From Hyphomicrobiales bacterium (GTDB lineage Bacteria; Pseudomonadota; Alphaproteobacteria; Rhizobiales; RI-29), in assembly GCA_016125495.1 (NCBI GenBank), contig WGLQ01000020.1, forward strand, positions 1-64,000: 64,000 nucleotides of DNA, read 5' to 3'. Below are positions 36,953 through 54,707 of the stretch, piece by piece (the stretch's first letter is position 1; every line of letters starts with the position of its first letter). Position numbers and translations under genes: made by a program. The notes beneath the pieces were generated by a model, which was not told where the DNA came from, did not search any database, and worked only from the letters and a program-made list of their open reading frames with translations.

Positions 36953-37936
36953 TCAGACGCGTCCGAGCAACTTGTAGAGTTTCTGTTCCTCCACAACCAT
37001 CGGGTGGGCGAGCGCCGCGCGGTGCGCCGCCTCCAGCGTCTTTGCTCCGCCCGCCTGCTCGGCCGCCCAGGCCCTGGCAAATGTTCCGTCCGCGATCTCG
37101 CGGACGATCTTGCGGAGCTTGTCCTTTTCCGCCTCGTCCTCATCCGGCGCGAGGCGTGCGGTCACCTCCTGGCCGTATTGGCTCGTGCGCGAGTGCAGCG
37201 TGATCTGATGGAAGAGGCCGATGTCTCGGTAGGCGCGCGCCGTCTCTATGCCCTCACCGGAGGCATAGAGTTCGAGAAGGACCGCCTCCGAACCGCAACC
37301 CGCCTCGGTCAACACCTCGTAGGCGCGCCGAACCGCATAGAGGAAGCCCCACTGCTCGGCGAAGAGGTCTATGATCGTCTCCTCCCGGAAACTGGACATG
37401 ACAACGCCCATTCGCGTCGAGCCGATCGCCTTCGAGAGGGCGATGGTGCGGGCGAGCGCCTTTCCGGAGGCATCCTGCTCGACGCCGATGAGGCTTGGGA
37501 ACCCGACGCCGGAGACGAACGTGTCGCGCACACCCTTGCCGATCATGCGTGGGGCGACCAGCACCACGTCGGCGTCGGCGGGTGGCGTGATGTGCTTGAA
37601 GAAGATATTGTAACCGCTGGCGAAAACGAGAACCACCCCGGGCTTCAGGTGCGGTGCGATCTCAGCCCGATAAATCTCCGGCATCACCTCGTCGGGCAAG
37701 AGGAGAAAGAGGACGTCGGCGCGCGCGGCGGCCTCGGCCAGGGGATGCACCGCAAAACCGTCCTCCCGGCATTGCTCGGCCGAGGCATCCGAGCGCGAGC
37801 CGACGATGACCTCGATCCCGCTGTCGCGCATGTTGAGCGCCTGGGCCCGGCCCTGATTGCCGTAGCCGAAGATGCAGACCGTTCTCCCCTCGAGGAGCGA
37901 AAGATCGCCGTCCTCGTCGAAGTACCACTGTGCCAT
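36953..37936 (-). CDS. Ketol-acid reductoisomerase-like protein, divergent
   Basis: A 327-residue protein of the IlvC fold. It has an N-terminal NADP-binding Rossmann domain (IFGYGNQGRAQALNMRDSG) and a helical C-terminal domain. Compared with IlvC, the Asp and Glu of the DLFGEQ motif are kept (DLFAEQ), but the CGG motif is replaced, and of the two glutamates in the FECLHE region only the first seems kept (LLELYAS). It is therefore probably not the housekeeping isoleucine/valine enzyme. It leads a transporter operon, pointing to catabolism of a related hydroxy/keto acid. The start at 37936 has AGGAG six bases upstream. Confidence 0.85.
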   Translation of the reverse strand: MAQWYFDEDGDLSLLEGRTVCIFGYGNQGRAQALNMRDSGIEVIVGSRSDASAEQCREDGFAVHPLAEAAARADVLFLLLPDEVMPEIYRAEIAPHLKPGVVLVFASGYNIFFKHITPPADADVVLVAPRMIGKGVRDTFVSGVGFPSLIGVEQDASGKALARTIALSKAIGSTRMGVVMSSFREETIIDLFAEQWGFLYAVRRAYEVLTEAGCGSEAVLLELYASGEGIETARAYRDIGLFHQITLHSRTSQYGQEVTARLAPDEDEAEKDKLRKIVREIADGTFARAWAAEQAGGAKTLEAAHRAALAHPMVVEEQKLYKLLGRV

Positions 37937-37973
37937 CGCCATCTCCTGACCACTATCACGCTCTCTTTTGAAA

Positions 37974-38294: not shown

Positions 38295-38897
38295 TCAGAC
38301 GCCGGCGGGGTTCTCCACATCGGCACCGATCTCGGCGAGGTCCTGGTAACGGTCGCCGATGCGGTGGTGGGGACGCCCTCCGGTTGCTCCGCCGAGTGCC
38401 ACGATCAGTTCGTCGTGCCCGGGGGCATCGTGGATCGACATCTGGATGGTGAGGTAATGCGAACGACGGCCGGTATCGTTCTTGTCCATGAGAGGGATTT
38501 GCAGCTGGGTGTTGGCCGGCCCTCGTGAATTCGTGAAGCCGAGATAGCTCTTGGCGCCGACGGCGCGGCGGTAGAAATTGCCGAACTGGAGCGTATGGAT
38601 GAGGGCGGAGGCGTGCTCGAGTTCGCAGTGCGTGCCGGCCATGCAGGCCTTGCCATAGGCCTCGATCCGGTCACTGCCGCCGGCGAGAGAGACGATCCGA
38701 TCCGTCAGCAGCTTGCCCATCCCGGGTGCGATCGCCCGGATCTCGGGGCGCAGATCCTCGACATAACCTCTCCCCGCCCAGGGATTGCGCAACACGGCCG
38801 CGACCGCGATGAGGCGGAGCGGAGGGCTCGCGGCCCGCTCACCCTCCATATGGATTTCCTCGTCGTACACGACGAGCTTTCGCAGGTTCGGCGTCAT
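38295..38897 (-). CDS. DUF1185 (amino acid synthesis family) protein
   Basis: A 200-residue protein of the DUF1185 'amino acid synthesis' family: N-terminal KLVVYDEEIHMEGE, a central GKACMAGTHCELEHASALIHTLQFGNFYR region and DELIVALGGATGGRPHHRIGD near the end. The biochemical role is not established. The gene overlaps the fusion gene by four bases and ends the operon. It co-occurs here with RidA, a hydrolase and a flavin reductase, suggesting a role in degrading a nitrogen-containing compound. Confidence 0.82.
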   Translation of the reverse strand: MTPNLRKLVVYDEEIHMEGERAASPPLRLIAVAAVLRNPWAGRGYVEDLRPEIRAIAPGMGKLLTDRIVSLAGGSDRIEAYGKACMAGTHCELEHASALIHTLQFGNFYRRAVGAKSYLGFTNSRGPANTQLQIPLMDKNDTGRRSHYLTIQMSIHDAPGHDELIVALGGATGGRPHHRIGDRYQDLAEIGADVENPAGV

Positions 38898-41056
38898 ATC
38901 ACTCTCCGCTTGTGGTCGGGCCCCGTCGGCTTGACGATGCCCTCGGTCTCATCACCCATGTAGACCGCGAACTCGCCCTGGCGGGCCTCGTCGCAGTAGC
39001 GCTGCAGCATCGAGCGCATGGCCGGGTCGTGGATGCGATCGAATGGGATGTCGTCGAGCGCGAAGAACCGCGTGCCGGCGGGCGGCTCCCCTGAGGCGCG
39101 ACCACGGTAGTAGATGGCGAACGAACCGGTGGGCTTGTCCTCGTAGACCGCATAGACGAAGTCGATCGCCGTCTCGAAGCCCGGCTGCCCATAGCACCGC
39201 GCAAGGTCATCCAGCCGGGATTGCCCACCGTCGCGGCCGACACTCGGGACGGTGACCGCACCGTGCTCACCGGACGTCTCGAGCAGGATCGCGCCTTCCC
39301 TTTCGTAGATCGCACCGACCACGGTGCCGCTGCGCCGCGCGACGGCGTCGACGAGCGGCTCCTCCACGCCGAGCGTGAAATATCGTCCCCGATAATAGCC
39401 GAGCGGTCGGCCATCGCTTCTCCCGATGGCGGTCACCCGGCCGATCAGAATGACGTGGTCGCCCGCTTCCATGCGGGAATGCCGGCTGCACTCGAGAAAG
39501 GCGAGTGCTCCCTCGAGAAGGGGAACACCGCTGCTTCCGGCGCGCCAGGGGGCGATCTCGAACTTGTCGGGGCGCTTGGTGGCAAAAAGGCCGGAGATGT
39601 CCTTCTGGTCGTCGGCAAGGATGTTTATCGCGAAGTTCCGCGCCGAGCAGAAGACGTGGCGGCTGGCAGCATTGCCGGCCACGCAAACGAGGACGAGGGG
39701 CGGATCGAGCGAAACCGAGGTGAAGGAGTTCGCCGTGAACCCACGCGGGGTTCCATCCGCCTCGAGGGCGGTGATCACGGTCACCCCTGTCATGAACTGT
39801 CCGAGCACATCGCGCAAGGCGCGCTGATCGAGGGCGCCGTGCGGTGCCTCTGCGGGCTCGGTTGACGCGGAAAGATAATAATCGTTGTCGGCCCCCAGGC
39901 GCGGCGGGCCGGCGGGAGGCGGTGCCGGCGTCTTCTGGAAGTGCACGGGGTTGGCGGCGACACGCCAGGGCCGCGCGCCCGGTTCCGGATGCGCAAGTTC
40001 CGCGATCATGGCGCGGGCGGCAACGTGCGGATCGGCAAGGATGTCGGCGGCGTCGTTGACAGGGCCGTAGGGCAGCAGCCCGCCGAGGATCGCAGTCAGT
40101 TCCGCCTTGGTGTGCCGCCCGGTCCATTCGGCAACCGCCGCGTTGACGCGTTCGGCGTTCTCGCGCCGCCCGGTCTTGTCGGCGAGGCCCTCGTCGGCCG
40201 CCAGATCCGGACGCGACATGGCCTTCGTCAGGCGGCGCCAGAATTCGTCGTCCACCACACCGATCGAAACCCAGCCGTCGCTCGCGGGAAAAAGCCCGAA
40301 TGGCGCCAGCAGCGGATGCCCATTGCCGACGGGCACCGGCGTCAGCCCCTCGATGTCCTGCTGGTAGACGATGCGCTCGCAGAGGCTGAGAACGGCATCG
40401 TACATGGCGAGGTCGATGAACTGGCCCTCACCGGTCAATTCGGCATGACGGATCGCCGCGACGATGGCGAACGACATCATCATGCCCGAAAAGACGTCGC
40501 CGACGCCGGGGCCGGACTTCAGCGGCGAGGCGGCATCCGGTCCGGTGATCGACATGAGGCCGCCCATCGCCTGGGCGACGACATCGTAGGACGGCCAATC
40601 GTTGTATGGGCTCTTGCCGCTGCGCGGATCGCCAAAGCCACGGATCGCGGCATAGACGAGGCGGGGGTTGACGCGCGCGAGGGCTTCGTAGGAGAGCCCC
40701 AGCCGCTCCATCACGCCCGGACGAAAATTTTCCACCAGGACGTCGGCGTCGCGTACGAGGGCAACCAGCGCGTCACGTCCCTCGGGCGACTTGAGGTCGA
40801 GCCGCACGCTCTTCTTTCCGCGATTGAGGGAGATGAAGTATCCGGCCCACTCACGTGCAGGATCATCGTCCCTATAGGGACCGTTGGTGCGGCTCGTGTC
40901 GCCCTCGGCGCCCTCGATCTTGACGACCTCGGCGCCATGGTCGCAGAGCATCATCGTGCAGTAGGGACCGGACAGCATCCGCGTCAGATCGAGCACGCGC
41001 ACGCCCGCGAGAATGCCTCCCGTCCGCTGCGGCGCAGCGCCATCCCTTCCGGTCAT
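38894..41056 (-). CDS. Fusion: family III CoA-transferase + flavin reductase + extra domain
   Basis: An uninterrupted 720-codon gene. Residues 1-395 are a CaiB/BaiF-type CoA-transferase (VLDLTRMLSGPYCTMMLCDHG; catalytic Asp187 in GVGD). Residues ~408-565 are a RutF/HpaC-type flavin reductase (LGQFMTGVTVITA, GFTANSFTSVSLDPPLVLVC, SRHSRMEAGDHVILIGRV). Residues ~566-720 form a third domain (FALDDIPFDRIHDPAMRSML) of a kind I associate with some flavin reductases. The reductase would supply reduced FMN to a monooxygenase, but none is encoded nearby. The gene overlaps both neighbours by four bases. Confidence 0.88.
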   Translation of the reverse strand: MTGRDGAAPQRTGGILAGVRVLDLTRMLSGPYCTMMLCDHGAEVVKIEGAEGDTSRTNGPYRDDDPAREWAGYFISLNRGKKSVRLDLKSPEGRDALVALVRDADVLVENFRPGVMERLGLSYEALARVNPRLVYAAIRGFGDPRSGKSPYNDWPSYDVVAQAMGGLMSITGPDAASPLKSGPGVGDVFSGMMMSFAIVAAIRHAELTGEGQFIDLAMYDAVLSLCERIVYQQDIEGLTPVPVGNGHPLLAPFGLFPASDGWVSIGVVDDEFWRRLTKAMSRPDLAADEGLADKTGRRENAERVNAAVAEWTGRHTKAELTAILGGLLPYGPVNDAADILADPHVAARAMIAELAHPEPGARPWRVAANPVHFQKTPAPPPAGPPRLGADNDYYLSASTEPAEAPHGALDQRALRDVLGQFMTGVTVITALEADGTPRGFTANSFTSVSLDPPLVLVCVAGNAASRHVFCSARNFAINILADDQKDISGLFATKRPDKFEIAPWRAGSSGVPLLEGALAFLECSRHSRMEAGDHVILIGRVTAIGRSDGRPLGYYRGRYFTLGVEEPLVDAVARRSGTVVGAIYEREGAILLETSGEHGAVTVPSVGRDGGQSRLDDLARCYGQPGFETAIDFVYAVYEDKPTGSFAIYYRGRASGEPPAGTRFFALDDIPFDRIHDPAMRSMLQRYCDEARQGEFAVYMGDETEGIVKPTGPDHKRRVI

Positions 41057-41874
41057 CCCTCTGCCCCCGGCCGAACGTCATCGAGGAAGGCCAGCAACTC
41101 CGCGTTGAAGCGCGCCGGCGCCTCCATCATCGCCATGTGCCGCAGGCCGTCGAGGATCACTGTCCGCGCTCCCGCGATCTCACCCGCGATCGCCACCGAC
41201 ATGGCCGGCGAATTGCCATGATCCTCGCTTCCCGTCATCACCAGTGTCGGGCAAGAGATGGGGGGCTGGGGGGCGACGAGTTCGTCGACTCCCTCGACCA
41301 GGACCTGGTAGTTGAGAGGATAAATTTCCGGGTCGTTCTCGAGTATCCAGCGGCGCACCAGGTCCATCGTATCGCCGTGGTCGCGCCGGAAATCGTCCCC
41401 GAACCACCTCGTGAGCGCTGCCTCGACCGTCGCGGACGGTCCCCGGGCGCGGGCCTGCTCGACGCGCGCCGCGATCGCCGCGTGGGCCGCCGGGTCGCGG
41501 CGGTGCGCGGAATGGAGGATGGCCAGGGCCCAGAGACGTTCGGAATGGTCCATGGCGAAGCGGCGTGCGATCATGCCGCCGAGGGAGAAGCCCGCGACCG
41601 CGGCACGGGCAATGCCGATATCATCGAGGAGACCGGACAACTGCGAGGAAAAAACCGCGAGCGACGGGCGGGCGCCTGACGGCGGACTCTCGCCATGCCC
41701 GGCGAGATCGTAGGTCAGAACGCGGAACCTGGCGGCCAGGCATGGCACCTGCTCGCGCCACATGCCACGGTTGAGGCCGAGGCCGTGCACCAATGCAACC
41801 ACGGGGCCGCTGCCCCCTGTCAATTGGTAGGCGGTGCCGTCCCGTGCCCTGCCAGACCTCGCGTTCATCGCCAT
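41053..41874 (-). CDS. Alpha/beta hydrolase
   Basis: A 273-residue alpha/beta hydrolase of the 3-oxoadipate enol-lactonase/RutD type. Oxyanion region VHGLGLNRGMW, nucleophile Ser97 in GFSLGG and the C-terminal catalytic His in LRHMAMMEAP. It would cleave an ester, lactone or C-C bond in the pathway. It sits 17 bases after ridA. A start two codons later is possible. Confidence 0.9.
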   Translation of the reverse strand: MAMNARSGRARDGTAYQLTGGSGPVVALVHGLGLNRGMWREQVPCLAARFRVLTYDLAGHGESPPSGARPSLAVFSSQLSGLLDDIGIARAAVAGFSLGGMIARRFAMDHSERLWALAILHSAHRRDPAAHAAIAARVEQARARGPSATVEAALTRWFGDDFRRDHGDTMDLVRRWILENDPEIYPLNYQVLVEGVDELVAPQPPISCPTLVMTGSEDHGNSPAMSVAIAGEIAGARTVILDGLRHMAMMEAPARFNAELLAFLDDVRPGAEG

Positions 41875-41891: not shown

Positions 41892-42341
41892 TCAGCCGCC
41901 GAGAGGTTTATAGGCGACGACCTCGACCTCCACGCGGACGTCGACGAGGAGTTCGCCGACAACGGCCGAGCGGGCCGGGGGCTCGCTCGGGAAATACTCC
42001 CCATAGATCCTGTCGAAGCCGGGAAAGTCGCCGCGCTCGCGAAGCCATACCATGGCCTTGACGACGTCGCGGTAAGTGCAGCCGGCGAGCGCCAAAGTTC
42101 GGCCGATCTCGTCCAGCACGACGCGCGTCTGCTCCTCGATGCTGCCGGTCGTCATGACGGCGCCGTCCTTCATGGGGATCTGACCGGTCAGGAAGACGAA
42201 ATCGCCAGCGCGAACGGCGCGCGACAGCGAGAGGGTGCGCCCGCCGATGACGATCGGATCACCGATCACGCGCTTTGCGTTCGCGGTGCGCGCGCCCGAT
42301 CGGGCATCGTCGTGTTGGTGGCCGGTGGCTGGATCACTCAT
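41892..42341 (-). CDS. RidA/YjgF family deaminase
   Basis: A 149-residue RidA-family protein that hydrolyses reactive enamines/imines or, in pathways such as pyrimidine and 2-aminomuconate breakdown, acts as a dedicated deaminase. The arginine of the active site (PPARSAVVGE) is kept, as is FLTGQIP. The N-terminal ~25 residues extend beyond the usual fold. It is the first gene of its operon, divergent from the aldehyde dehydrogenase. Confidence 0.9.
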   Translation of the reverse strand: MSDPATGHQHDDARSGARTANAKRVIGDPIVIGGRTLSLSRAVRAGDFVFLTGQIPMKDGAVMTTGSIEEQTRVVLDEIGRTLALAGCTYRDVVKAMVWLRERGDFPGFDRIYGEYFPSEPPARSAVVGELLVDVRVEVEVVAYKPLGG

Positions 42342-42510: not shown

Positions 42511-43995
42511 ATGAGCGACCTCCAGCGATATCAGATGCTGATCGACGGCGAATGGGTGGGCGCGAGCGACGGGCGCACATTCGAGAGCGTCAATCCCACC
42601 ACGGGCGAGCCCTGGGCGCTCATTCCGGAGGCGACGGCCGAGGACGTCGATCGCGCGGTCAAGGCCGCCTGGCGCGCCTTCTCGCAAGGCCCGTGGTCCC
42701 GCACGCTGGCGAGCGAGCGGGGCCGCATGCTGCGCCGGCTGGCGGATCTGCTCGCCGAGAAATCGGAAGCACTCGGGCGCATCGAGACCATCGATACCGG
42801 CAAAATGCTGAAGGAGACGCGCTGGCAGGCCAAGTACATCGCCGAGTTCTTCAACTTCTATGCCGGCTGCGCCGACAAGGTGCATGGCGAGACGCTGCCG
42901 ATCGACAAACCGGACATGGTGACGATGACGATGCGCGAGCCGCTCGGCGTCGTGGCGGCCATCGTGCCATGGAACTCCCAGATGTTCCTGGTCGCGGTCA
43001 AGATCGGACCGGCGCTCGCGGCCGGCAACACCGTCGTGCTCAAGACATCCGAGCATGCTGCCGCGCCGCTGCTCGAATTCGGCCGGTTGATCGAGCAGGC
43101 CGGCTTTCCGCCAGGGGTCGTCAACATCGTCACCGGCCACGGCGATCCGTGCGGGCGCACACTCACTTCGCATCCGCTGGTCGCGCGCATCAGCTTCACG
43201 GGCGGACCGGGGGCGGCGCGGCACGTGCTGCACAACTCGGCGGAGAATTTCGCCGAGGTCTCGCTCGAACTCGGCGGCAAGTCGCCGTTCATCGTGTTCG
43301 ACGATGCCAATATCGAGAGCGCGGTCAACGGCTCGGTCGCCGGCATTTTCGGGGCGAGCGGGCAGAGCTGTGTCGCAGGCTCGCGCCTCTATCTGCACGA
43401 GCGGATCGCGGATGAATTCCTCGAGAGGATGATCGCCATCACGCGCAACATCCGGATCGGCGATCCGCTGGCCGAGGAGACCCAGATGGGTCCGCTCGCC
43501 ACGACCGCGCAAATCGAGCGGATCGAAATGGAGGTCGCCCTCGCGCAGGAGCAGGGCGGCAGCCTGCTGCACGGCGGCAAGCGCCCGCAGTCGATGCCCC
43601 GTGGCTGGTTCTACGAGCCGACCATCATCTCCTGCCCCGATCAGAAGATGAAAATCGTCGACACGGAACTGTTCGGACCCGTGCTGAGCGTGCTGACGTT
43701 CCGAGACGAGGACGAAGTGGTGGATCTGGCCAACGACACCAGGCATGGCCTGGCGGCGGGAATATTCACGGGCAATGGCGCGCGCAGCCTGCGCGTCAGC
43801 AAGCGACTGCGCGCCGGGATCGTCTGGGTGAACACGTACCGCGTCGTCTCGCCGATCGCCGAATTCGGTGGCTGCAAGGATTCGGGCTACGGGCGCGAAA
43901 GCGGCATGCAGGCGATCTACGACTACACGCGCCCAAAGACGGTGTGGATCAATATTTCCGACCAGCCGCTCGGCAACCCGTTCGTGATGCGCTGA
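42511..43995 (+). CDS. Aldehyde dehydrogenase
   Basis: A 494-residue NAD(P)-dependent aldehyde dehydrogenase. Catalytic Cys287 (GQSCVAG), general base Glu253 (SLELGGKSP) and the cofactor-anchoring PWNSQ/VLKTSEH are present. Substrate unknown; overall pattern is of the betaine/2-aminomuconic semialdehyde type. It is divergent from ridA by 169 bases. Its stop codon directly abuts the stop of the convergent serine hydrolase gene. Confidence 0.93.
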   Translation: MSDLQRYQMLIDGEWVGASDGRTFESVNPTTGEPWALIPEATAEDVDRAVKAAWRAFSQGPWSRTLASERGRMLRRLADLLAEKSEALGRIETIDTGKMLKETRWQAKYIAEFFNFYAGCADKVHGETLPIDKPDMVTMTMREPLGVVAAIVPWNSQMFLVAVKIGPALAAGNTVVLKTSEHAAAPLLEFGRLIEQAGFPPGVVNIVTGHGDPCGRTLTSHPLVARISFTGGPGAARHVLHNSAENFAEVSLELGGKSPFIVFDDANIESAVNGSVAGIFGASGQSCVAGSRLYLHERIADEFLERMIAITRNIRIGDPLAEETQMGPLATTAQIERIEMEVALAQEQGGSLLHGGKRPQSMPRGWFYEPTIISCPDQKMKIVDTELFGPVLSVLTFRDEDEVVDLANDTRHGLAAGIFTGNGARSLRVSKRLRAGIVWVNTYRVVSPIAEFGGCKDSGYGRESGMQAIYDYTRPKTVWINISDQPLGNPFVMR

Positions 43996-45134: not shown

Positions 45135-47327
45135 TCAGGCACGCAAATGGATGAGCGCGTCCACCGCACAGACGCGATCGGCGTGGACGAACAGCGGATT
45201 GATTTCGATCTCGGCGAGGCGTTCGGCATTCTGGCGAGCGAATTGCGCGATGCCGGCGATCTCTCGGGCGATCGCCATCAGGTCAGCGGTCGGGCGGCCA
45301 CGAAAGCCGCCGAGCAGCCGCGACGCTCGGAGTCCGGCAATCGCATCCGCTATGTCGGTCGGCGAGGACGGCAGCAGCAGCGTCACGCTGTCGCCGATCA
45401 ACTCGACCAGAACGCCGCCGCTTCCGATCGTCATCGCCTGGCCGAACGCGGCGTCCGAGCGAACGCTGACGATCAGTTCGGCGAGCGGCTCGGGCTCCAT
45501 GCGCTCCACCAGGAACCGGTCCGTCAGGCTGGCCGGACGGCGCTCGCGGACGCTCGCCTTCATCGCATCGACCGCCGCCGAAACGGCTTCGCCGGTCCGC
45601 AGCCCCAGAGCCACGGCTCCGAGTTCTGTCTTGTGGAGGATATCGGCGCCGAGCATCTTCAAGGCAACCGGAAAGCCGAGGGTGCCGGCGGCGGCGCTGG
45701 CCTGTTCACCGCTCGAAACCACGCCCCGTGGAACGCAGACGTCCGCCTCTGCCAGCATCGCCTTGGCGTCAGCCTCGTCGATCGCAACGAGCCCCGAGCA
45801 GGGCGAGGAGGCAAGGAGCGGCGCCGGCCGTTGCTCGCAGAGGCGCGCGCGCGCCGCGCGCCAGCGAACGGCCGCCGCGATCGCCCGCAAGGCCGCTCCG
45901 ATCCCCTGCATCGGCGCGATGCCGCGCGCACGGAAATGGCGGCGCGTCGCCGGATCGATGTTTTCCGGCAGTGTGCTGCAGATGATTCCCGGAACGCCAG
46001 CCGCCCGAACAGCATCGGCGAACGCGTCGCCATCGGCAAGGTAGAAGGAGCGCGATTCGTCCAATCCCGCGGCGGGATAATCCTGGACCAGGAGCGCGAC
46101 ATCGCAGCCCCCCTCCAGCGCCGCCCTGAAGACGGGGCCGGTGCGCTCCGGCTGCCCCCAGATCGGTGTCGTATAATCGAGCGGATTGGAGACCGTCGCG
46201 ATCGGAGGGAGAAGTGCGGCGAGCCTCTCGCGTATTGCCGGGGCGTGCTCCGGATAGGCGAGACCATGATCGTCACCGAGATCGGCGAGCATGGTCGCCC
46301 CGCCACCCGAACAGGTGAAGCCGGCGATCCGCGGCCCGCGCGGCGCCCCCGCGACGCAGAGCAACTTCAGGGTCTCGAGCAGATCATCGGGCTCGCGGAC
46401 ACGGATCACGCCACAGCGCTGGAACAACGCATCGTAGAGATCGTCCTCTCCCGAAAGCGAGCCAGTGTGGCTGGACGTCAGCGCCCCGCCGATCGCGGAG
46501 GAACCGGTTTTCAGTGCGACGATGGGCTTGCCGAGCGCGGCGGCCCTGACGGCGATTTCGGCGAACCGACGCACGTCGCGCAGGCCCTCGATGTGCAGGC
46601 CGACCGCACACACCTCCTCCTTCTCACACAGAACCTCGAGCAAATCCTCGATGGTGACGACCGCCTGGTTGCCGATGGAAATCATGTGGGTGAGCGGCGC
46701 CGAGCGCTGGCTCATCGTCAGGTCCGAGGAGAGCATGCCGCTCTGGGTGATGATCGCGGCGCCGTGGCCGGGTGTCTCGCCGCCGTGTGCGAACGGCCAG
46801 AGCGCGGTTCGCGTCAGGTAGTTTATGACCCCATAGCAGTTCGGACCAATGAGGGCCATGTCGCCCGCCGCTTCGACCAGCGCACGCTCGGCGGCGATGC
46901 CCTCGCTACCCGCCTCTCCGAAACCGGCCGTGTAGCAAACGATCCCTCCCGTGCCTCGACGCGAGAGAGCCGCCACGGTATCGATCGCCTGCGGCACCGG
47001 GACGGCGAGAAACACGGCATCCGGAGCCTCAGGCAGGGCATCGATGGAGGGGAAACATTCGATCCCCGCGAGCTGCTCGCGCTTGGGATTGACCGGCCAG
47101 AGGGCCCCCCCGAAGCCGATGCGGCGGGCCTCGCCGATGGCGACAGCCGCATCGCGTCCGCCGATGAAGGCGATGTGCCGGGGCGCGAGAAGCCGCTCGA
47201 GGTTCGTCCGGCGACGGATGGTCATGGAGGTGTTCGCGAACGCATGGTCAGACGGGCCGGCGGCGGTCACCGCAGGCAAGCATCCGGGCTCGCAAACGGC
47301 ATGCTCGACGGTCATCGACCGGCTCAT
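45135..47327 (-). CDS. NDP-forming acyl-CoA synthetase (acetate-CoA ligase type)
   Basis: A 730-residue single-chain ADP-forming acyl-CoA synthetase: N-terminal CoA-binding domain (IAFIGGRD), succinyl-CoA-synthetase-like flavodoxin domains with the phospho-histidine region SSHTGSLSGED, and a C-terminal ATP-grasp domain (GFPVALKMLGADILHKTELGA). It links an acid with CoA using ATP. I choose the ATG at 47327 because it overlaps the preceding stop (ATGA); an internal ATG at 47225 would give the more usual N-terminus. Confidence 0.9.
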   Translation of the reverse strand: MSRSMTVEHAVCEPGCLPAVTAAGPSDHAFANTSMTIRRRTNLERLLAPRHIAFIGGRDAAVAIGEARRIGFGGALWPVNPKREQLAGIECFPSIDALPEAPDAVFLAVPVPQAIDTVAALSRRGTGGIVCYTAGFGEAGSEGIAAERALVEAAGDMALIGPNCYGVINYLTRTALWPFAHGGETPGHGAAIITQSGMLSSDLTMSQRSAPLTHMISIGNQAVVTIEDLLEVLCEKEEVCAVGLHIEGLRDVRRFAEIAVRAAALGKPIVALKTGSSAIGGALTSSHTGSLSGEDDLYDALFQRCGVIRVREPDDLLETLKLLCVAGAPRGPRIAGFTCSGGGATMLADLGDDHGLAYPEHAPAIRERLAALLPPIATVSNPLDYTTPIWGQPERTGPVFRAALEGGCDVALLVQDYPAAGLDESRSFYLADGDAFADAVRAAGVPGIICSTLPENIDPATRRHFRARGIAPMQGIGAALRAIAAAVRWRAARARLCEQRPAPLLASSPCSGLVAIDEADAKAMLAEADVCVPRGVVSSGEQASAAAGTLGFPVALKMLGADILHKTELGAVALGLRTGEAVSAAVDAMKASVRERRPASLTDRFLVERMEPEPLAELIVSVRSDAAFGQAMTIGSGGVLVELIGDSVTLLLPSSPTDIADAIAGLRASRLLGGFRGRPTADLMAIAREIAGIAQFARQNAERLAEIEINPLFVHADRVCAVDALIHLRA

Positions 47328-48472
47328 GCGCCGAGGGGGCGCAATGCCGCGCGCGAGATGATGTGTCGCTGAATCTCGGACGTCCCGTCCCAAATCCGCT
47401 CGAGGCGGGAATCGCGCCAGAGACGCTGCACCGGAATTTCCTCCATGAGACCCATTCCGCCGAAGATCTGCACCGTGTCGTCGGCCACCCGGTTCAACAT
47501 CTCCGAGCAATAGACCTTGACCATCGCGGCATCGGCATCCGTCATGATACCCGCTTCGGCGCGACGCACGGCGTCCGCGACGAGGAGATCGCCGGTGCGC
47601 AACCCGATGGCCATGTCCGCGAGCTTGAAACCGACACCCTGGAAGCGCCCGATCGGCTGACCGAACTGACGCCGGCTGGCTGCCCACTCCGTGGCCATCT
47701 GCGTCAGGCGCTCGGCCTTGCCGCAACAGCTCGCACCGACCCAGATCCGCCCCATGCCGAGCCACTTGCCGGCAAGTTCGAGACCTTGTCCCTCCTCTCC
47801 GAGGATCTGTCCGGGCCCGAGCCGAACATTGTCGAATGCGAGCTGGAAGGTCTTGTAGCCTCGATAGCTGACGCAGCGCGTACCTTCACGGATCGAAAAC
47901 CCGGGCTCCCCGACGTCGACCAGGAAGGCCGTGATCCGCCTGCGGCTGCCGCGCGGGGTCTCGTCGGTCCCGGTCGCGGCAAAAACGATGGCAAAGTCCG
48001 GCATGCAGGGGCCGGAAATGAAATGCTTCGAGCCCTCGAGGATCCAGTCGCTCCCGTCGCGCCTGGCATTCGAGCGCATACCCATCACGTCGGAGCCGGC
48101 TTCCGGCTCGGTCAGCGCGAACAACTCGCGTTTTTCCCCGCTGACGCACGGCAGCAGATAGCGCGCCACCTGATCGTCGCGGCAGGCGAGGAGAATTTCC
48201 GTCGGCCGCGCGATCCAGGAGTGCAGCGCGTGGCTCGTCTTGCCGTACTCGCGCTCCATCATCGCAAGAGCGGTCTTGCCGAGGCCGCCACCTCCGACCT
48301 CCTCGGGCAGGTTCGCGGCAAAGAGGCCGAGCGCCTTGGAGCGCTGCTCGATCTGGCGGCCGAGTTCCTCGGGCACGTAGCCGAGGCGGTCGACCTCGTC
48401 CTCGTGTGGAATGAGCTCGGCGTTCATGAAGGCTTGGATGGTGCCGAGCAGGAGTTCGTTCTCGTGGGACAT
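47324..48472 (-). CDS. Acyl-CoA dehydrogenase
   Basis: A 382-residue acyl-CoA dehydrogenase, an FAD enzyme oxidising an acyl-CoA to the enoyl-CoA. FAD/substrate motifs FALTEPEAGSD and GTSEIQRHIISRA are present. At the place of the usual catalytic Glu (IYEGT) the sequence reads IWDGT, an Asp. A GTG two codons upstream overlapping the permease stop is an alternative start. It lies in the transporter operon, immediately before the CoA synthetase. Confidence 0.92.
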   Translation of the reverse strand: MSHENELLLGTIQAFMNAELIPHEDEVDRLGYVPEELGRQIEQRSKALGLFAANLPEEVGGGGLGKTALAMMEREYGKTSHALHSWIARPTEILLACRDDQVARYLLPCVSGEKRELFALTEPEAGSDVMGMRSNARRDGSDWILEGSKHFISGPCMPDFAIVFAATGTDETPRGSRRRITAFLVDVGEPGFSIREGTRCVSYRGYKTFQLAFDNVRLGPGQILGEEGQGLELAGKWLGMGRIWVGASCCGKAERLTQMATEWAASRRQFGQPIGRFQGVGFKLADMAIGLRTGDLLVADAVRRAEAGIMTDADAAMVKVYCSEMLNRVADDTVQIFGGMGLMEEIPVQRLWRDSRLERIWDGTSEIQRHIISRAALRPLGA

Positions 48473-48474
48473 CG

Positions 48475-49290
48475 TCACTGGTCGTTGCTCCGTTCGTCAA
48501 TGCGGCCCGCCGCGCGCCTTCGCTGCGCGATGTCGTAGATGAAATAGGCCACCAGTGTTGCCGCGATCAGCACCACGGCAGCGGCGGCGACGGTCGGGTC
48601 GGTGTTCTCCCGGATGCCGTTCCACATGCGCCGCGGGAGCGTGTAGACGGAGAATTTCGAGATGAACAGCGCGACCACGACCTCGTCCCAAGAGAGGATG
48701 AAGGCAAAGATCGCGCCGCCGTAAATGCCGGGCCGGATCGAGGGAAGAATGACGCGCCAGAGCGTCGTGGGCATGGAGGCGCCGAGGTTGCGCGAAGCCT
48801 GCTCGAGCCTCGGATCGAAATTGGCGAGCGAGGCGGAGACGGTAATCAACACCATCGGCGCGGCGAGGATCGTATGGGCCAGGATCAACCCGGCATAGCT
48901 GTCCAGCAACTTCAACGGTATCCACAGCCGGTAAAACGCCATCGCCGAGATGATCGGCGGAATGATGAGCGGCAGGAGGAGGAAGGCCCGGACCACTTCG
49001 CTCGCGCGGCTCGATATGCGCCAGAGCCCGATGGCCGCGAGCGTGCCGACGAGCGTTGCGAGGATAGTGGCACAAGTGGCGATCACCGCACTCTGCCAGA
49101 AGCTCGACAGCCAGGCCGGGCTGGTGAAGAGGTGAATGAAATGGCGCAGGGAATACTCGCCCTGCGGCATCGAGAGGAACGCCTTCGGCGTCAGTGAAAC
49201 AGGAATGGCAACGAGTGCGGGCGCGACGAGGAACAGCAGGATGAGCCACGCCGCGAGCCGATTGACCCTTTCCGCAAGGCCGCGCCTCAT
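48475..49290 (-). CDS. ABC transporter permease (PotC-like)
   Basis: A 271-residue permease with six helices and the EAA loop EQASRNLGASMPTTLWRVILPSI. It belongs to the spermidine/putrescine-type importer class together with the other genes of this operon, and overlaps the PotB-like gene by four bases. Confidence 0.93.
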   Translation of the reverse strand: MRRGLAERVNRLAAWLILLFLVAPALVAIPVSLTPKAFLSMPQGEYSLRHFIHLFTSPAWLSSFWQSAVIATCATILATLVGTLAAIGLWRISSRASEVVRAFLLLPLIIPPIISAMAFYRLWIPLKLLDSYAGLILAHTILAAPMVLITVSASLANFDPRLEQASRNLGASMPTTLWRVILPSIRPGIYGGAIFAFILSWDEVVVALFISKFSVYTLPRRMWNGIRENTDPTVAAAAVVLIAATLVAYFIYDIAQRRRAAGRIDERSNDQ

Positions 49291-50135
49291 CGCCCGCCCC
49301 CGCCGAACAACGCGCCGAGCTTCATGAAACGGTTCATGAGGGCGAGCAGGACGAGCACTCCCGCCAGCATCAATGTCGCGAGCATCGCCGCCGTGCCCCA
49401 GCGCAAGGTCACCAGGATCTGGACGGAAATGTACTCGGCGACCATGAGGACCTTGCCACCGCCCAGAATGGCCGGCGTCACATAGAACCCGAGACTGATG
49501 ATGAAGACGAGTAACGAGGCCGCGAAGATTCCCGGCATGGACAGAGGCAGGAAAATGCGCAGGAACGTCTGACGGTTGCTCGCGCCGAGACTGCGGGAGG
49601 CATCGAGAACCCGGCGGTCGAGGCCCTGCATGTTGGTCAGCAATGGCAGCACCGCATAGGGGATCATGTATTGCACCATGCCGATCAGAACGCCGAGTTC
49701 ATTCCGCATGAAGGCGATCGGGGCATCGGTCAGGCCTGTCGCCTGAAGCGCATTGTTGACGACACCGTTGTGACCGAGCAGCATGAGCCACGAAAAGGTG
49801 CGCACGAGAACCGAAATCCAGAAGGAAATCAGCACCAGTGTCAGCATCCAGCGTTGCTCGCGCGCGAGGGCGTGAACGATGGCGTAGGCGAGTGCATAGC
49901 CGAGGAAAACGCTGATGACGGTCGTCAGGAGGCAAATGCGCAGCGTGGTCCAGACGATGCGGGCGAGCGAGTCGCTGGTCGCGAGCTTTGCATAGTTCCC
50001 GAGGCCGGGCTGTGGGTCCGTGAAACTCAGCCAGAGGATGTTGGCGATCGGCGCGAGATACAGAAACGCGACCGCGGCCAGGAATGGCAGCACCAATAGC
50101 CAGTAGGTGTTCGCACTGCGCAGGACCACGGGCAT
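49287..50135 (-). CDS. ABC transporter permease (PotB-like)
   Basis: A 282-residue permease with six helices and the EAA loop DASRSLGASNRQTFLRIFLPLS. It is separated from the binding-protein gene by 93 bases that hold a strong hairpin. Confidence 0.93.
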   Translation of the reverse strand: MPVVLRSANTYWLLVLPFLAAVAFLYLAPIANILWLSFTDPQPGLGNYAKLATSDSLARIVWTTLRICLLTTVISVFLGYALAYAIVHALAREQRWMLTLVLISFWISVLVRTFSWLMLLGHNGVVNNALQATGLTDAPIAFMRNELGVLIGMVQYMIPYAVLPLLTNMQGLDRRVLDASRSLGASNRQTFLRIFLPLSMPGIFAASLLVFIISLGFYVTPAILGGGKVLMVAEYISVQILVTLRWGTAAMLATLMLAGVLVLLALMNRFMKLGALFGGGGR

Positions 50136-50185
50136 CGGCTCGGTGGGTGACGGGGCTTCGTTGGCAGGCCGGCGAGGCCAGGTTC

Positions 50186-50218
50186 ACCCGCGCGGCGACA
50201 TGGGCTCGCCGCGCGGGT
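50186..50218 (-). promoter_or_regulatory. Intercistronic hairpin between binding protein and permease
   Basis: A perfect 13-base GC-rich stem (ACCCGCGCGGCGA and its complement) with a seven-base loop starts ten bases after the binding-protein stop on the minus-strand transcript. With no T tract, it more likely protects the binding-protein mRNA or lowers downstream expression, as known for malE-malF, than fully terminates. Confidence 0.6.
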
Positions 50219-50228
50219 CGCACTGTTC

Positions 50229-51338
50229 TCAGCTGATCGCTTCCAGATAGGCGTTGACGGCATCACCGCCGTGGTCGGCCCACCAGACGGGATCGTTGAA
50301 GACCACATTGGCGATGTTCTTGGCGGAGGTGATCGCGTAGTCCTGCTGTTCGGCGGGAATCTGCGCGAAGGCCTCGGGGTTGGTCGGCGTCATGCCGAGG
50401 CAGTCGAGCAGCGTCAGCTGCGGCCCGATGTCCTGCGCCGTGCGGATGAATTTCATCACGTTTTCCCGTCCGGCCGGGTTGCCACGCGGCACGAGATAGG
50501 CTCCCGGCATCGCGAGGGCCTCGTTCATGACGAGCTTGTAGCGCCCGTTGGTGTCGGCCTCGAGATTCTTTCCGCGGTTCTGCCAGATCATGCCCATCGA
50601 CACCTCGCCATTGACGATCATCGAGTGGGCCTCGGAGCCGGAGCCCCAATAGATGCTGTCGTCCTTGATCGACTTGATCTTGGCGATCGCCCGCGGCACG
50701 TCGCATGGATAGAGGTTCGCCTTGGCGACACCGTCGGCAAGGAGCGCGCCCTCGATCGCGCCGTTCGCCCACTTGTAGAGAGAGCGCTTGCCGGGGAACT
50801 TGGCGGTGTCGAAGAAGTCCGCCCAGGAGTTCGGCGGGTTGGAGCCATAGGCCTGCGTGTCGTACATGAAGGCGTAGCCGTAGAAGATGATGGAAACGCC
50901 GTGGTCCCAGGCGAACCCGTCGATCACCTTCGACTTGTCGACGACGGAATAGTCGATCGCCTCGAGATGGCCGGAGCGGCCTAGAGCGATGGCATCGAAG
51001 GCATCGGCGTCGCAGACGTCGGCGGTCACGTTGCCGGAATCGACCATCTCCTTGATCTTGCCCTGCAGCGGGCCCGAGGTGTCGAAGCGCAGGGGCATAC
51101 CGGTCGCGGCCGTGAACGGCTCACCGATCGCCTTGCCGTGGCAGACCTCCGAGGTGCCGCCCCAATTCCACAGGACGATCTCGTTGGCGGCCGCATGAGC
51201 GTCACCGGACGCGACCGACATTCCGGCGACGCCGGCCATGCCGCAGAGCACGAGGAAGCTTCGCCGGTCGAGCCGGCCGGACTTGAAGTCGTGGGCCGCC
51301 TGGTAGACGGCCTCCCGCAGGAACTGTTGATCTCTCAT
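50229..51338 (-). CDS. PotD-like substrate-binding protein with Tat-type signal
   Basis: A 369-residue spermidine/putrescine-type binding protein. The N-terminus has a twin-arginine motif (DRRSFLV) before a hydrophobic stretch ending GDAHA, suggesting Tat export. Mature start AANEIVLWNWGG is typical. A GGAGG site precedes the ATG. The ligand is not known; the operon suggests a quaternary amine, amino acid or other betaine-like compound. Confidence 0.9.
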   Translation of the reverse strand: MRDQQFLREAVYQAAHDFKSGRLDRRSFLVLCGMAGVAGMSVASGDAHAAANEIVLWNWGGTSEVCHGKAIGEPFTAATGMPLRFDTSGPLQGKIKEMVDSGNVTADVCDADAFDAIALGRSGHLEAIDYSVVDKSKVIDGFAWDHGVSIIFYGYAFMYDTQAYGSNPPNSWADFFDTAKFPGKRSLYKWANGAIEGALLADGVAKANLYPCDVPRAIAKIKSIKDDSIYWGSGSEAHSMIVNGEVSMGMIWQNRGKNLEADTNGRYKLVMNEALAMPGAYLVPRGNPAGRENVMKFIRTAQDIGPQLTLLDCLGMTPTNPEAFAQIPAEQQDYAITSAKNIANVVFNDPVWWADHGGDAVNAYLEAIS

Positions 51339-51450
51339 TTATTTCCTCCACTGCACCTTGCTGACCGATCATCACTGCGCTTGGCGGGTCGGTGCGATCC
51401 GACCTCTCTTTCGTGGCGGAACGGGCGTCCGCCTGAAGCCGGGTGGCCGC

Positions 51451-52461
51451 TCACGTATCGGCGACACGGACCGCAGCCGTTTCCTTCCACGACAAATTGA
51501 CACTCTGACCGGCGGCGAACCTGTGCGGGGTGCGCCAGGCATCGCTGACGACCTCGAGATTTCCGGCGCCTTCGGTGTCGACGACGAACATGAGGCTCGA
51601 GCCGAGATAGGTGATCGAGCGGATCGTGCCACGCTGGCGCAAAGCACCTTCGCCCATGCCGGCCGGCGCGATGTCGATCTTTTCCGGTCGTAGCGCGAAC
51701 ACCTGCCCGCCCGAACGCAGAAAATTGCTCCGCCCGAGGAAGTTGGCCGCGAAGACCGACGCCGGCCGCTCGTAGAGCTCCTCCGGCGTGCCGGTCTGCA
51801 CGATCTCGCCGTGGTTCATGATCACCACACGGTCGGACATGGAGAGCGCCTCCTCCTGGTCGTGCGTGACGTAGATGAAGGTCGTGCCGACACTCGTGTG
51901 GATGTCCTTGAGCTGGGCCTGCACCTCGACGCGCAATTTCTTGTCGAGGGCGCCGAGCGGTTCGTCGAGAAGGAGGACTTTGGGCGAAAAGCACAGCGCC
52001 CGGGCGAGGGCGACGCGCTGCTGCTGGCCACCCGAAAGCTGGCGCGGCAGCCGCGCGCCGAAGTCCCGCAGCTGAACGAGTTCGAGCATCTCGTCGACGC
52101 GGCGCTCGACGTCGGGGCGCGGGGTGCCGCGCACGGAGAGGGCATAGCCCACGTTCTGGCGCACATTCATGTGAGGGAACAGCGCATAGCCCTGGAAGAC
52201 CATGCCGAAGTGCCGCTTTTCAGCCGGCACCGTGGCAATGGAGGTCCCGTCCACGAGGATGTCGCCGGCCGTGACGTCCTCGAAGCCGGCGATCATCATG
52301 AGCAGTGTCGTCTTGCCGGAGCCGGACGGGCCGAGCAGCGTCAGGAATTCGCCGGCCTCGATGCCGAGATCGACGTTGGCGACCGCCAGCGTTCTGGCGA
52401 AGCGCTTTGATACGCCGACGAGCCGAAGCCCTGCTCCACGCTGTGCGGCAACCGCCACCAT
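51451..52461 (-). CDS. ABC transporter ATPase (PotA-like)
   Basis: A 336-residue ATPase: Walker A GPSGSGKTT, signature LSGGQQQRVALARAL, Walker B VLLLDEP, and switch His in VTHDQEEA, with a C-terminal TOBE domain. The ATG overlaps the BKACE stop by one base (TAATG), so translation is coupled. A small six-base hairpin (51387-51404) lies in the 112-base gap to the binding-protein gene. Confidence 0.95.
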   Translation of the reverse strand: MVAVAAQRGAGLRLVGVSKRFARTLAVANVDLGIEAGEFLTLLGPSGSGKTTLLMMIAGFEDVTAGDILVDGTSIATVPAEKRHFGMVFQGYALFPHMNVRQNVGYALSVRGTPRPDVERRVDEMLELVQLRDFGARLPRQLSGGQQQRVALARALCFSPKVLLLDEPLGALDKKLRVEVQAQLKDIHTSVGTTFIYVTHDQEEALSMSDRVVIMNHGEIVQTGTPEELYERPASVFAANFLGRSNFLRSGGQVFALRPEKIDIAPAGMGEGALRQRGTIRSITYLGSSLMFVVDTEGAGNLEVVSDAWRTPHRFAAGQSVNLSWKETAAVRVADT

Positions 52462-53351
52462 TATGCTCCCGGTGTACGCAGATGGAGCTTGGCACGCGCC
52501 TCGGCCGGGGTCAGCACGCGCGCGCCCATGCGCTCGATGATGCCGACAACGCGCTCGACCAGCTGGCCGTTGCTCGCCAGGACGCCGCGGTCGAGATAGA
52601 TATTGTCCTCCAGCCCGACCCGCACGTTGCCCCCCATCGCAACGGCAGCGGCGGCCATCGGCATCTGCATGCGCGAAATGCCGAAGCTCGCCCAACTCGC
52701 GCCGGCAGGAAGCTGGTCCTTCATAGCCTTCATGTTGTCGACCGACTGGTCGGCGCCCCAGGGGATGCCGAGGCAGATCTGGAACATGGGTGGGTCGGCC
52801 ACGAGACCTTCATTTATCAGGTGCTTTGCGAGCCGGATGTGGCCAAGGTCGAACACTTCGAGTTCCGGCTTGACGCCCCATTCCTTCACCAGCGCTGCCA
52901 TTCGGCGGAGATAGGGCGGTGTCGACATGTAGACGTAGTTGCCGTCGCCGAAGTTCATCGAGCCGCAGTCGAGACTGCAGATTTCGGGGCGCAGCATCTC
53001 GACGTGCGCGAGGCGCTCCTCCGGCCCGATCATGTCGGTGCCGGGGCCGTATTTCGTCGGATCCGTCTCGTCGATCATCCAGTCGCCGCCCATCCCAGCG
53101 GTCAGATTGACGACGACGTCCGTGCCGCTCGAGCGCACCATGTCGACGACCTGGCGGAAGAGCTCCGGATCGCGCGAGCCCTTGCCGGTGGCGGGGTCGC
53201 GCACGTGAATGTGGGCAATGGCGGCCCCGGCGCTGGCGGCCTCGATGGCCGAATCCGCGATCTGACGGGGGGTCACCGGGACTCCCGGATGCCGCCCGAC
53301 CGTGTCGCCCGCGCCGGTAACGGCACACGTCACAACCACCTCGAAGTTCAC
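52461..53351 (-). CDS. Beta-keto acid cleavage enzyme (BKACE, DUF849)
   Basis: A 296-residue BKACE-family protein. The founding member cleaves 3-keto-5-aminohexanoate with acetyl-CoA; relatives cleave dehydrocarnitine and other beta-keto acids, giving acetoacetate and a new CoA ester. Zn-ligand His motifs (AHIHVRD) and the N-terminus [18 protein letters not shown] are typical. I take the GTG ending at 53351 (matching the usual MN-x-EV start) with a G-rich site upstream over an ATG 33 bases earlier. It is first in an apparent eight-gene operon. Confidence 0.9.
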
Positions 53352-53408
53352 CGCAACCCCCGTAGCAAACACGCGATGACACAATCATTTGCCAACGGCG
53401 GGGACGCG

Positions 53409-53472: not shown

Positions 53473-54501
53473 ATGGGCAGGCGGGTCACACGGGTCTGCA
53501 TCGTCGTCGTGCCGCGATTCAACATGCTGACGCTGACGTCGTTCCTCGAGCCGATGCGGATCGCCAACTACCTGTCCCCCGAACCGCTCTATGCCTGGGA
53601 GTTTCGCTCCGTCGAGGCCGGCCGGGTGCCATCGAGCAACGGCATGTCACTGGATTGCCTCGCGATCGGCGAGCGCGGCGCAGAGCCCGCCAACCTCGTC
53701 GCGGTGTTCGGCAGCTGGGGCGCGGAGCACTTCGAGAGCGCGCCCCTTTCGCGATGGCTGCGCGAGCAGAAGCGGGCCGGGGCGACATTCGTTGCGGTCG
53801 AACTCGGCGTCTATCTGCTGGCTCGAGCCGGTCTTCTCGAGGGCCAGACGGTCACGACGCACTGGTCGTGCCTGCCGGGATTCGCCGAGATGTTCCCGGA
53901 CGTGGCGGTGCGCGAGCAGCTTTTCGTGGCCGACAGCAAGGTGCTGTCGTGCGCGGGCGGCTCGGCCGGCCTCGATCTCTCGCTCGAGCTGATGGCCCGC
54001 GAGCACGACGAGCAACTCGCGCTCGAGGTGGCGGCGCAGATCCTGCACCATCCGCGCAGACCCGCCAACAGCGCCCAGCGCCACGCCCTCAGCATGTCCG
54101 TGCACGCCGACGTGCGCGCGGCGATCGCGCTGCTGGAAGCCAATATCGAGGAGCCGAGACCGGTGCCGCGGCTCTGCCGGGAACTGGGGGTCTCGCAAAG
54201 GAAGCTCGAGCGGCTCTTCAAGAGCCACACCGGCTGCACCGTCGTGCAGTTCGCCAACCTGCTGCGTCTGCAGAAGGCACGCGTGCTGCTGATCAGCACC
54301 TCGATGTCGATCCGCGACGTTTCGGCCGCCTGCGGCTTCAACTCGCTGTCCTATTTCTCCATGTGTTTCCGGCGCACGTTCGGGCGCAAGCCGAGCGAAT
54401 ACCGCCTCGCCTGGCCCGAGCAGGACCCGGCGCCGTCCTGGCCGGGGACGGTCTACGCGTTCAAACAGGGCCATCAGGGGCAGAAGGGGAAGGCGGGGTG
54501 A
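53473..54501 (+). CDS. GlxA/CdhR-type AraC-family regulator
   Basis: A 342-residue regulator: N-terminal DJ-1/PfpI (GATase1-like) domain (VCIVVVPRFNMLTL ... ELGVYLLARAGLL) and C-terminal AraC double helix-turn-helix (LGVSQRKLERLFKSHTG; VSAACGFNSLSYFSMCFRRTFG). The same architecture is found in CdhR (carnitine) and GbdR (glycine betaine). The ATG at 53473 has GGAG six bases upstream; a TTG further upstream is less likely. Divergence from BKACE suggests it activates that operon. Confidence 0.92.
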   Translation: MGRRVTRVCIVVVPRFNMLTLTSFLEPMRIANYLSPEPLYAWEFRSVEAGRVPSSNGMSLDCLAIGERGAEPANLVAVFGSWGAEHFESAPLSRWLREQKRAGATFVAVELGVYLLARAGLLEGQTVTTHWSCLPGFAEMFPDVAVREQLFVADSKVLSCAGGSAGLDLSLELMAREHDEQLALEVAAQILHHPRRPANSAQRHALSMSVHADVRAAIALLEANIEEPRPVPRLCRELGVSQRKLERLFKSHTGCTVVQFANLLRLQKARVLLISTSMSIRDVSAACGFNSLSYFSMCFRRTFGRKPSEYRLAWPEQDPAPSWPGTVYAFKQGHQGQKGKAG

Positions 54502-54707
54502 GGGGCGGGGCAGGTTGATCGGCGGTGAGGGTGACCTGCCCGTATCGTTCGTCCTGCCTCGGGTAGCATCCGAACCCAGATGAGCCGCTTTCCGTCCTTG
54601 GATCACCGGGAGCTGAAAACTCCTCCGGTTGATGCCCGTTCGGAGCGCGCTCCGACCGGATGGATACCTTGGGCCTTCGGACATCCTTCCAATGGCGGCT
54701 GATACGG

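Follow-up and report, generated by a model that had tools for sequence, protein, structure and literature searches.

The family III CoA-transferases, among them CaiB/BaiF, FRC and succinyl-CoA:mesaconate CoA-transferase, have a whole transferase domain and a catalytic aspartate in common. A C-terminal domain behind a flavin reductase is known from the reductase C1 of the A. baumannii HPAH system (PDB 5ZC2), which serves a separate oxygenase and whose additional domain is of the MarR type and autoinhibitory (PMC10816480). Another such protein is PDB 3RH7 (SMa0793 of Sinorhizobium meliloti), a 321-residue putative oxidoreductase and structural-genomics target that combines the reductase domain with a Nudix-like tail. 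The cai system of E. coli and aerobic carnitine degradation, finally, draw on a ligase, a CoA-transferase, an acyl-CoA dehydrogenase, a hydratase and carnitine dehydrogenase (PMC2131755). The gene described here, from a Hyphomicrobiales bacterium, places a CoA-transferase and a reductase of the 3RH7 type in one reading frame. The architecture is apparently undescribed, made of known parts and in no need of an exotic mechanism; the literature yielded no paper on a CoA-transferase–flavin reductase fusion or on Nudix-tailed reductases.

In the window (the whole 64,000-nucleotide stretch analysed, part of contig C20 of the source genome) the fusion gene occupies positions 38894..41056 on the minus strand, starts with ATG, encodes 720 amino acids and lacks internal stops; the first-pass annotation had reported one open 720-codon gene here, correctly as it turns out, without giving a strand. 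The CoA_transf_3 domain (residues 16-391, 39884..41011, minus strand) matches the Pfam profile over its full length (1-366 of 366, E 2e-125, 419 bits against a gathering score of 23.3), and the catalytic aspartate, residue 187 within GPGVGD187VFSG, is aligned in the homologues from related clusters. Judged by sequence, the first half is a family III CoA-transferase with a full-length domain and Asp187 kept, as had been proposed. Its best NCBIfam model is succinyl-CoA:mesaconate CoA-transferase (416 bits, below the cut-off of 700), while the CaiB (L-carnitine CoA-transferase) model scores 133 bits and does not reach its cut-off of 413; neither half of the fusion attains an NCBIfam equivalog cut-off. 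A linker of about residues 392-407 (39836..39883, minus strand) leads to the Flavin_Reduct domain (residues 419-562, 39371..39802, minus strand) and the tail (residues 563-720, 38897..39370, minus strand). The linker is a low-confidence region of the AlphaFold2 model, in which residues 379-407 have a pLDDT below 50, and the full-length model (pLDDT 65.7, pTM 0.43) is too weak for any statement on domain arrangement; the P. marina plasmid homologue introduced below was left out of the structure predictions. Because GC at third codon positions stays at 0.72-0.90 across the join (60-codon blocks) and the stretch examined around it offers no in-frame start codon other than a TTG within the reductase domain, the fusion reads as a single gene. 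It is two gene products joined, a CoA-transferase and a two-domain reductase.

The reductase domain, too, matches its Pfam profile at full length (2-152 of 153, E 3e-40, 138 bits against 27). Among the NCBIfam models for reductases, HsaB and the HPAH reductase match best; RutF (83 bits, cut-off 255) and HpaC (67 bits, cut-off 206) score much lower and stay below their cut-offs, so that the flavin reductase of the first-pass annotation stands while its assignment to the RutF/HpaC type does not. The tail, from about residue 563 to 720, has no Pfam match. Residues 408-711 of the fusion align with PDB 3RH7 across both reductase and tail (E 1.7e-65), the tail alone still finds 3RH7 (E 8e-13) and by sequence nothing else, and the match to 5ZC2 is essentially limited to the reductase part (13-191 of 315). 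A two-domain paralogue with 43% identity is encoded on contig C14 of the source genome (L051:9853-13822), where it overlaps a gene for an ABC ATPase-like protein and lies near a glycine-betaine-type (OpuAC) binding protein. The AlphaFold2 model of the tail reaches a pLDDT of 81, from an alignment of only 8 sequences, and a Foldseek search with it returns Nudix proteins and 3RH7 at the top (3cng, E 1.3e-09, along with many Nudix entries). The Nudix box GX5EX7REX2EEXG is present in none of nine tails; the tail is therefore not filed as a Nudix hydrolase, and its reading as an active enzyme of that kind is rejected. Nor is there support for a MarR-type domain with a regulatory role like that of HPAH C1, since the tail alone matches only 3RH7. 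Sequence and model together indicate that the tail is the ordinary second domain of the 3RH7-type reductase family, a pseudo-Nudix domain with no separate third activity. The roughly 155-residue tail noted at first is thus real, and its predicted fold is that of the second half of 3RH7, but it is not an extra third partner, given that reductase and tail form a two-domain family of which the paralogue is a further member. The tail probably binds a ligand or has a regulatory part; the sole analogy behind such a sensor role is the HPAH reductase, whose C-terminal domain is autoinhibitory (PMC10816480).

The fused form is rare yet not unique. A search of 397 genomes of the order gave one further full-length fusion, in genome G184 (56% identity over residues 3-710), and a plasmid collection gave one more, on the finished plasmid pW43B of Parasedimentitalea marina (58%, residues 11-708, 97% covered). 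No others were found among 385 genomes sampled from the class, 69 of the family of G334 and 6 of the family of G184; these samples are part of all sequenced bacteria, and three fused cases were seen in the sets searched. Loci from Comamonadaceae and Ottowia that a genome scan returned are no fusions but neighbouring CoA-transferase genes. The statement that no characterised enzyme is known to have this layout is in line with the literature search, and copies do exist in databases, annotated, as on pW43B, as just 'CoA transferase'.

Among genomes that carry the surrounding cluster, linkage of the CoA-transferase to a reductase is frequent but not universal. In G334 the CoA-transferase and the two-domain reductase are consecutive separate genes with a 4-base overlap (ATGA) behind the same hydrolase gene. 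A separate adjacent two-domain reductase is also encoded in G803 (partial, at a contig edge) and in G805, where internal in-frame losses have reduced the CoA-transferase ORF to 174 amino acids (L108:2421-2945) and the reductase and PF06684 genes beside it are intact. A different, single-domain reductase directly follows the PF06684 gene in G067, G134, G371, G799 and G794 (cut by the contig end), and no linked reductase was detected near the G307 cluster or in the short flanking stretches of G786 and G800. The CoA-transferase tree places the window protein in a group with G334 and G803, both unfused (98/88), and the G184 and P. marina proteins in another (100/99). The companions of the window protein in the reductase tree are G334 and G805, neither of them fused (92/95). 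A single clade of the three fused proteins is weakly rejected in both trees (AU p 0.030 and 0.034), a result that is suggestive only, the constraint having been chosen after the tree was seen. The fused forms are probably not one clade, and joining may therefore have occurred twice. The linkers of P. marina and G184 retain a methionine at about the position of the G334 reductase start, which the window linker lacks. Either two separate fusions or a single one that was later split could account for this.

The fusion gene overlaps by 4 bases at its start with an alpha/beta hydrolase gene (41053..41874, minus strand), which is preceded by a gene for a RidA-family protein (41892..42341, minus strand), and by 4 bases at its stop with a gene for an 'Amino acid synthesis' family protein, PF06684 (38295..38897, minus strand). 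Given these overlaps the order RidA, hydrolase, fusion, PF06684 appears to be an operon, and the four genes are presumably co-transcribed. Divergently oriented is an aldehyde dehydrogenase (42511..43995, plus strand) whose best NCBIfam score is for betaine-aldehyde dehydrogenase, below the cut-off. Beyond it lie an ADP-forming acyl-CoA synthetase-like CoA ligase (45135..47165, minus strand, start approximate), an acyl-CoA dehydrogenase (47324..48478, minus strand), an ABC transporter of two permeases, a solute-binding protein and an ATPase (48475..52395, minus strand), a further cluster feature (52461..53384, minus strand) and a GlxA/GbdR-like AraC-family regulator (53473..54501, plus strand) with its best score for GbdR, below the equivalog cut-off. 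A reading of the acyl-CoA dehydrogenase as a DszC/HsaA-type monooxygenase was discarded, acyl-CoA dehydrogenases scoring best and DszC only 22 bits. On the other side of the operon, a ketol-acid reductoisomerase-like gene (36953-37942) lies inside the catabolic neighbourhood and adjoins another ABC transporter, for which a separate binding protein is encoded.

Eight loci (the window, P. marina, G184, G334, G067, G134, G307 and G371) hold a conserved set of acyl-CoA dehydrogenase, ADP-forming CoA ligase, ABC transporter, BKACE, GlxA-type regulator, aldehyde dehydrogenase, RidA, hydrolase and CoA-transferase, and most of them PF06684 as well, though the stretches read do not always contain every member. 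Relatives have in addition an LLM (luciferase-like) monooxygenase and two further enzymes, an enoyl-CoA hydratase and a 3-hydroxyacyl-CoA dehydrogenase; the hydratase scores best against crotonobetainyl-CoA hydratase and the dehydrogenase against L-carnitine dehydrogenase, both below cut-off. In its gene types the set is similar to the cai and carnitine-dehydrogenase pathways (PMC2131755), and we infer a carnitine- or gamma-butyrobetaine-like cluster with a quaternary amine as the likely class of substrate. In the source genome, orthologues of the dehydrogenase and hydratase (76%) stand at the very start of contig C3, which shares 118 bp at 99% with the end of C20; this is consistent with, but not proof of, C3 adjoining C20. 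The end of the GlxA-type regulator gene recurs as a 403-bp direct repeat (98.5%; window 54101-54503 and G000:C20:77555-77957) that brackets about 23 kb of other genes, and the dehydrogenase and hydratase genes, which adjoin the regulator in relatives, apparently lie beyond it on C3. The cluster seems to have been split here by an insertion or a rearrangement.

The first-pass annotation was right to take the reductase to imply a flavin monooxygenase, and incomplete in reporting that partner as absent nearby. The source genome encodes a candidate oxygenase for a two-component flavin monooxygenase system, an LLM protein at G000:C29:49051-50085, on another contig than the fusion, with 74% identity to that of P. 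marina and next to a 48% paralogue of the cluster hydrolase. Orthologues of the P. marina LLM protein were found in all seven cluster-bearing genomes searched (71-78%), which makes eight of eight examined with P. marina itself. Most relatives have the gene within the cluster or close to it. It adjoins the aldehyde dehydrogenase in P. marina and G184, is no more than about 16 kb away from the CoA-transferase in G334, G067, G134 and G307, and stands just upstream of the CoA-transferase in G786; in G371 it is on another contig. Standalone reductase-plus-tail genes are directly followed by LLM genes at loci L012 and L017, and G004 has two adjacent pairs of this kind. There is good circumstantial evidence from such sequences that the 3RH7-type reductase family serves LLM monooxygenases; a literature search for LLM proteins in carnitine catabolism returned nothing relevant. 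The G334 cluster has in addition a Rieske oxygenase gene (L043:5421-6554) directly beside its aldehyde dehydrogenase, with GbcA as best score below the cut-off and no close orthologue in the other cluster genomes.

We regard the following explanation as reasonably probable, though well short of secure. Two adjacent, co-transcribed catabolic genes would have fused to yield a bifunctional polypeptide, of which residues ~1-391 would act as a succinyl-CoA-type family III CoA-transferase moving CoA onto or between acids in a carnitine/gamma-butyrobetaine-like beta-oxidation (ligase, acyl-CoA dehydrogenase, enoyl-CoA hydratase, 3-hydroxy dehydrogenase, BKACE). Residues ~405-720 would be an NAD(P)H:flavin reductase with a degenerate, non-catalytic Nudix-like tail, and reduced flavin would diffuse from it to the LLM monooxygenase of the same pathway, the one on C29. 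Tethering may set a fixed ratio of the two activities, and direct channelling would be unnecessary. Both activities, the flavin preference, the partnership with LLM and the role of the tail are what we infer from domains and gene order. A bolder version, in which an undescribed quaternary-amine route has its first, oxygen-dependent part and its later, CoA-dependent part co-regulated through permanent coupling, the pseudo-Nudix tail senses a pathway ligand and gates the use of NADH, and the fusion is the convergent outcome of two or more events, appears doubtful to us.

That assembly or sequencing simply joined two genes is the least credible of the alternatives. The source genome is a draft of 36 contigs, but the frame is open, codon composition is steady through the join, and independent homologues in G184 and on a finished plasmid show the same join, which makes a frameshift or assembly artefact very unlikely. 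A neutral accident deserves far more weight, and we would rate it at somewhat under an even chance: the stop codon between overlapping operon genes may have been lost, with domains that fold independently and nothing gained from tethering. Only three fused cases were seen, they are probably not one clade, a split form with the ATGA overlap exists in G334, and the short linker is modelled with low confidence; against this, two distant lineages have preserved the fused form at 56-58% identity, neither domain being damaged, which suggests that it has at least done no harm over long times. An accident of this kind would explain the origin of the fusion and does not conflict with the activities proposed.

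The remaining alternatives concern the chemistry. The reductase could feed a Rieske oxygenase, as in G334, or another acceptor such as iron or cobalamin in place of the LLM monooxygenase, and ferric and corrin reductases are indeed among the short-chain flavin reductases (PMC13327496); this is unlikely, however, as the Rieske oxygenase of the G334 cluster has no close orthologue in the other cluster genomes, whereas LLM is universal among them and reductase-plus-tail genes adjoin LLM genes. A Rut-like pathway, in which LLM, RidA, the alpha/beta hydrolase and the flavin reductase would act as RutA, RutC, RutD and RutF on a nitrogen-containing ring or enamine, is comparably improbable. All four protein types occur in the cluster or genome, but the RutC, RutD and RutF scores are far below cut-off, higher scores go to other families, and genes for CoA-ester chemistry and BKACE do not fit the Rut pathway; the strict Rut pathway is rejected on these model scores.

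Under the preferred reading, with a bifunctional enzyme and an LLM partner, the fusion and its gene order place a CoA-transferase and a flavin-dependent oxidation step in the same pathway, and they point to a seemingly undescribed oxygen-dependent branch feeding a carnitine-like route. They also draw attention to a widespread family of 3RH7-type reductases whose pseudo-Nudix tail and tendency to adjoin LLM monooxygenases may aid the annotation of many 'flavin reductase' genes. Compared with the cai and aerobic carnitine routes, the cluster shares the ligase, CoA-transferase, acyl-CoA dehydrogenase, hydratase and carnitine-dehydrogenase-like types and adds the LLM protein, flavin reductase, aldehyde dehydrogenase, RidA, alpha/beta hydrolase and PF06684, and the CoA-transferase of the fusion is not close to CaiB of the cai pathway. 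With Rut pyrimidine degradation it has LLM, RidA, alpha/beta hydrolase and flavin reductase types in common, here with CoA chemistry instead. At the level of the protein, HPAH C1 likewise extends a flavin reductase by a C-terminal domain, which in the fusion is Nudix-like instead of MarR-type; 3RH7 has both reductase and Nudix-like tail, and unlike the fusion it is without a CoA-transferase domain; and in comparison with the family III CoA-transferases the fusion adds a reductase.
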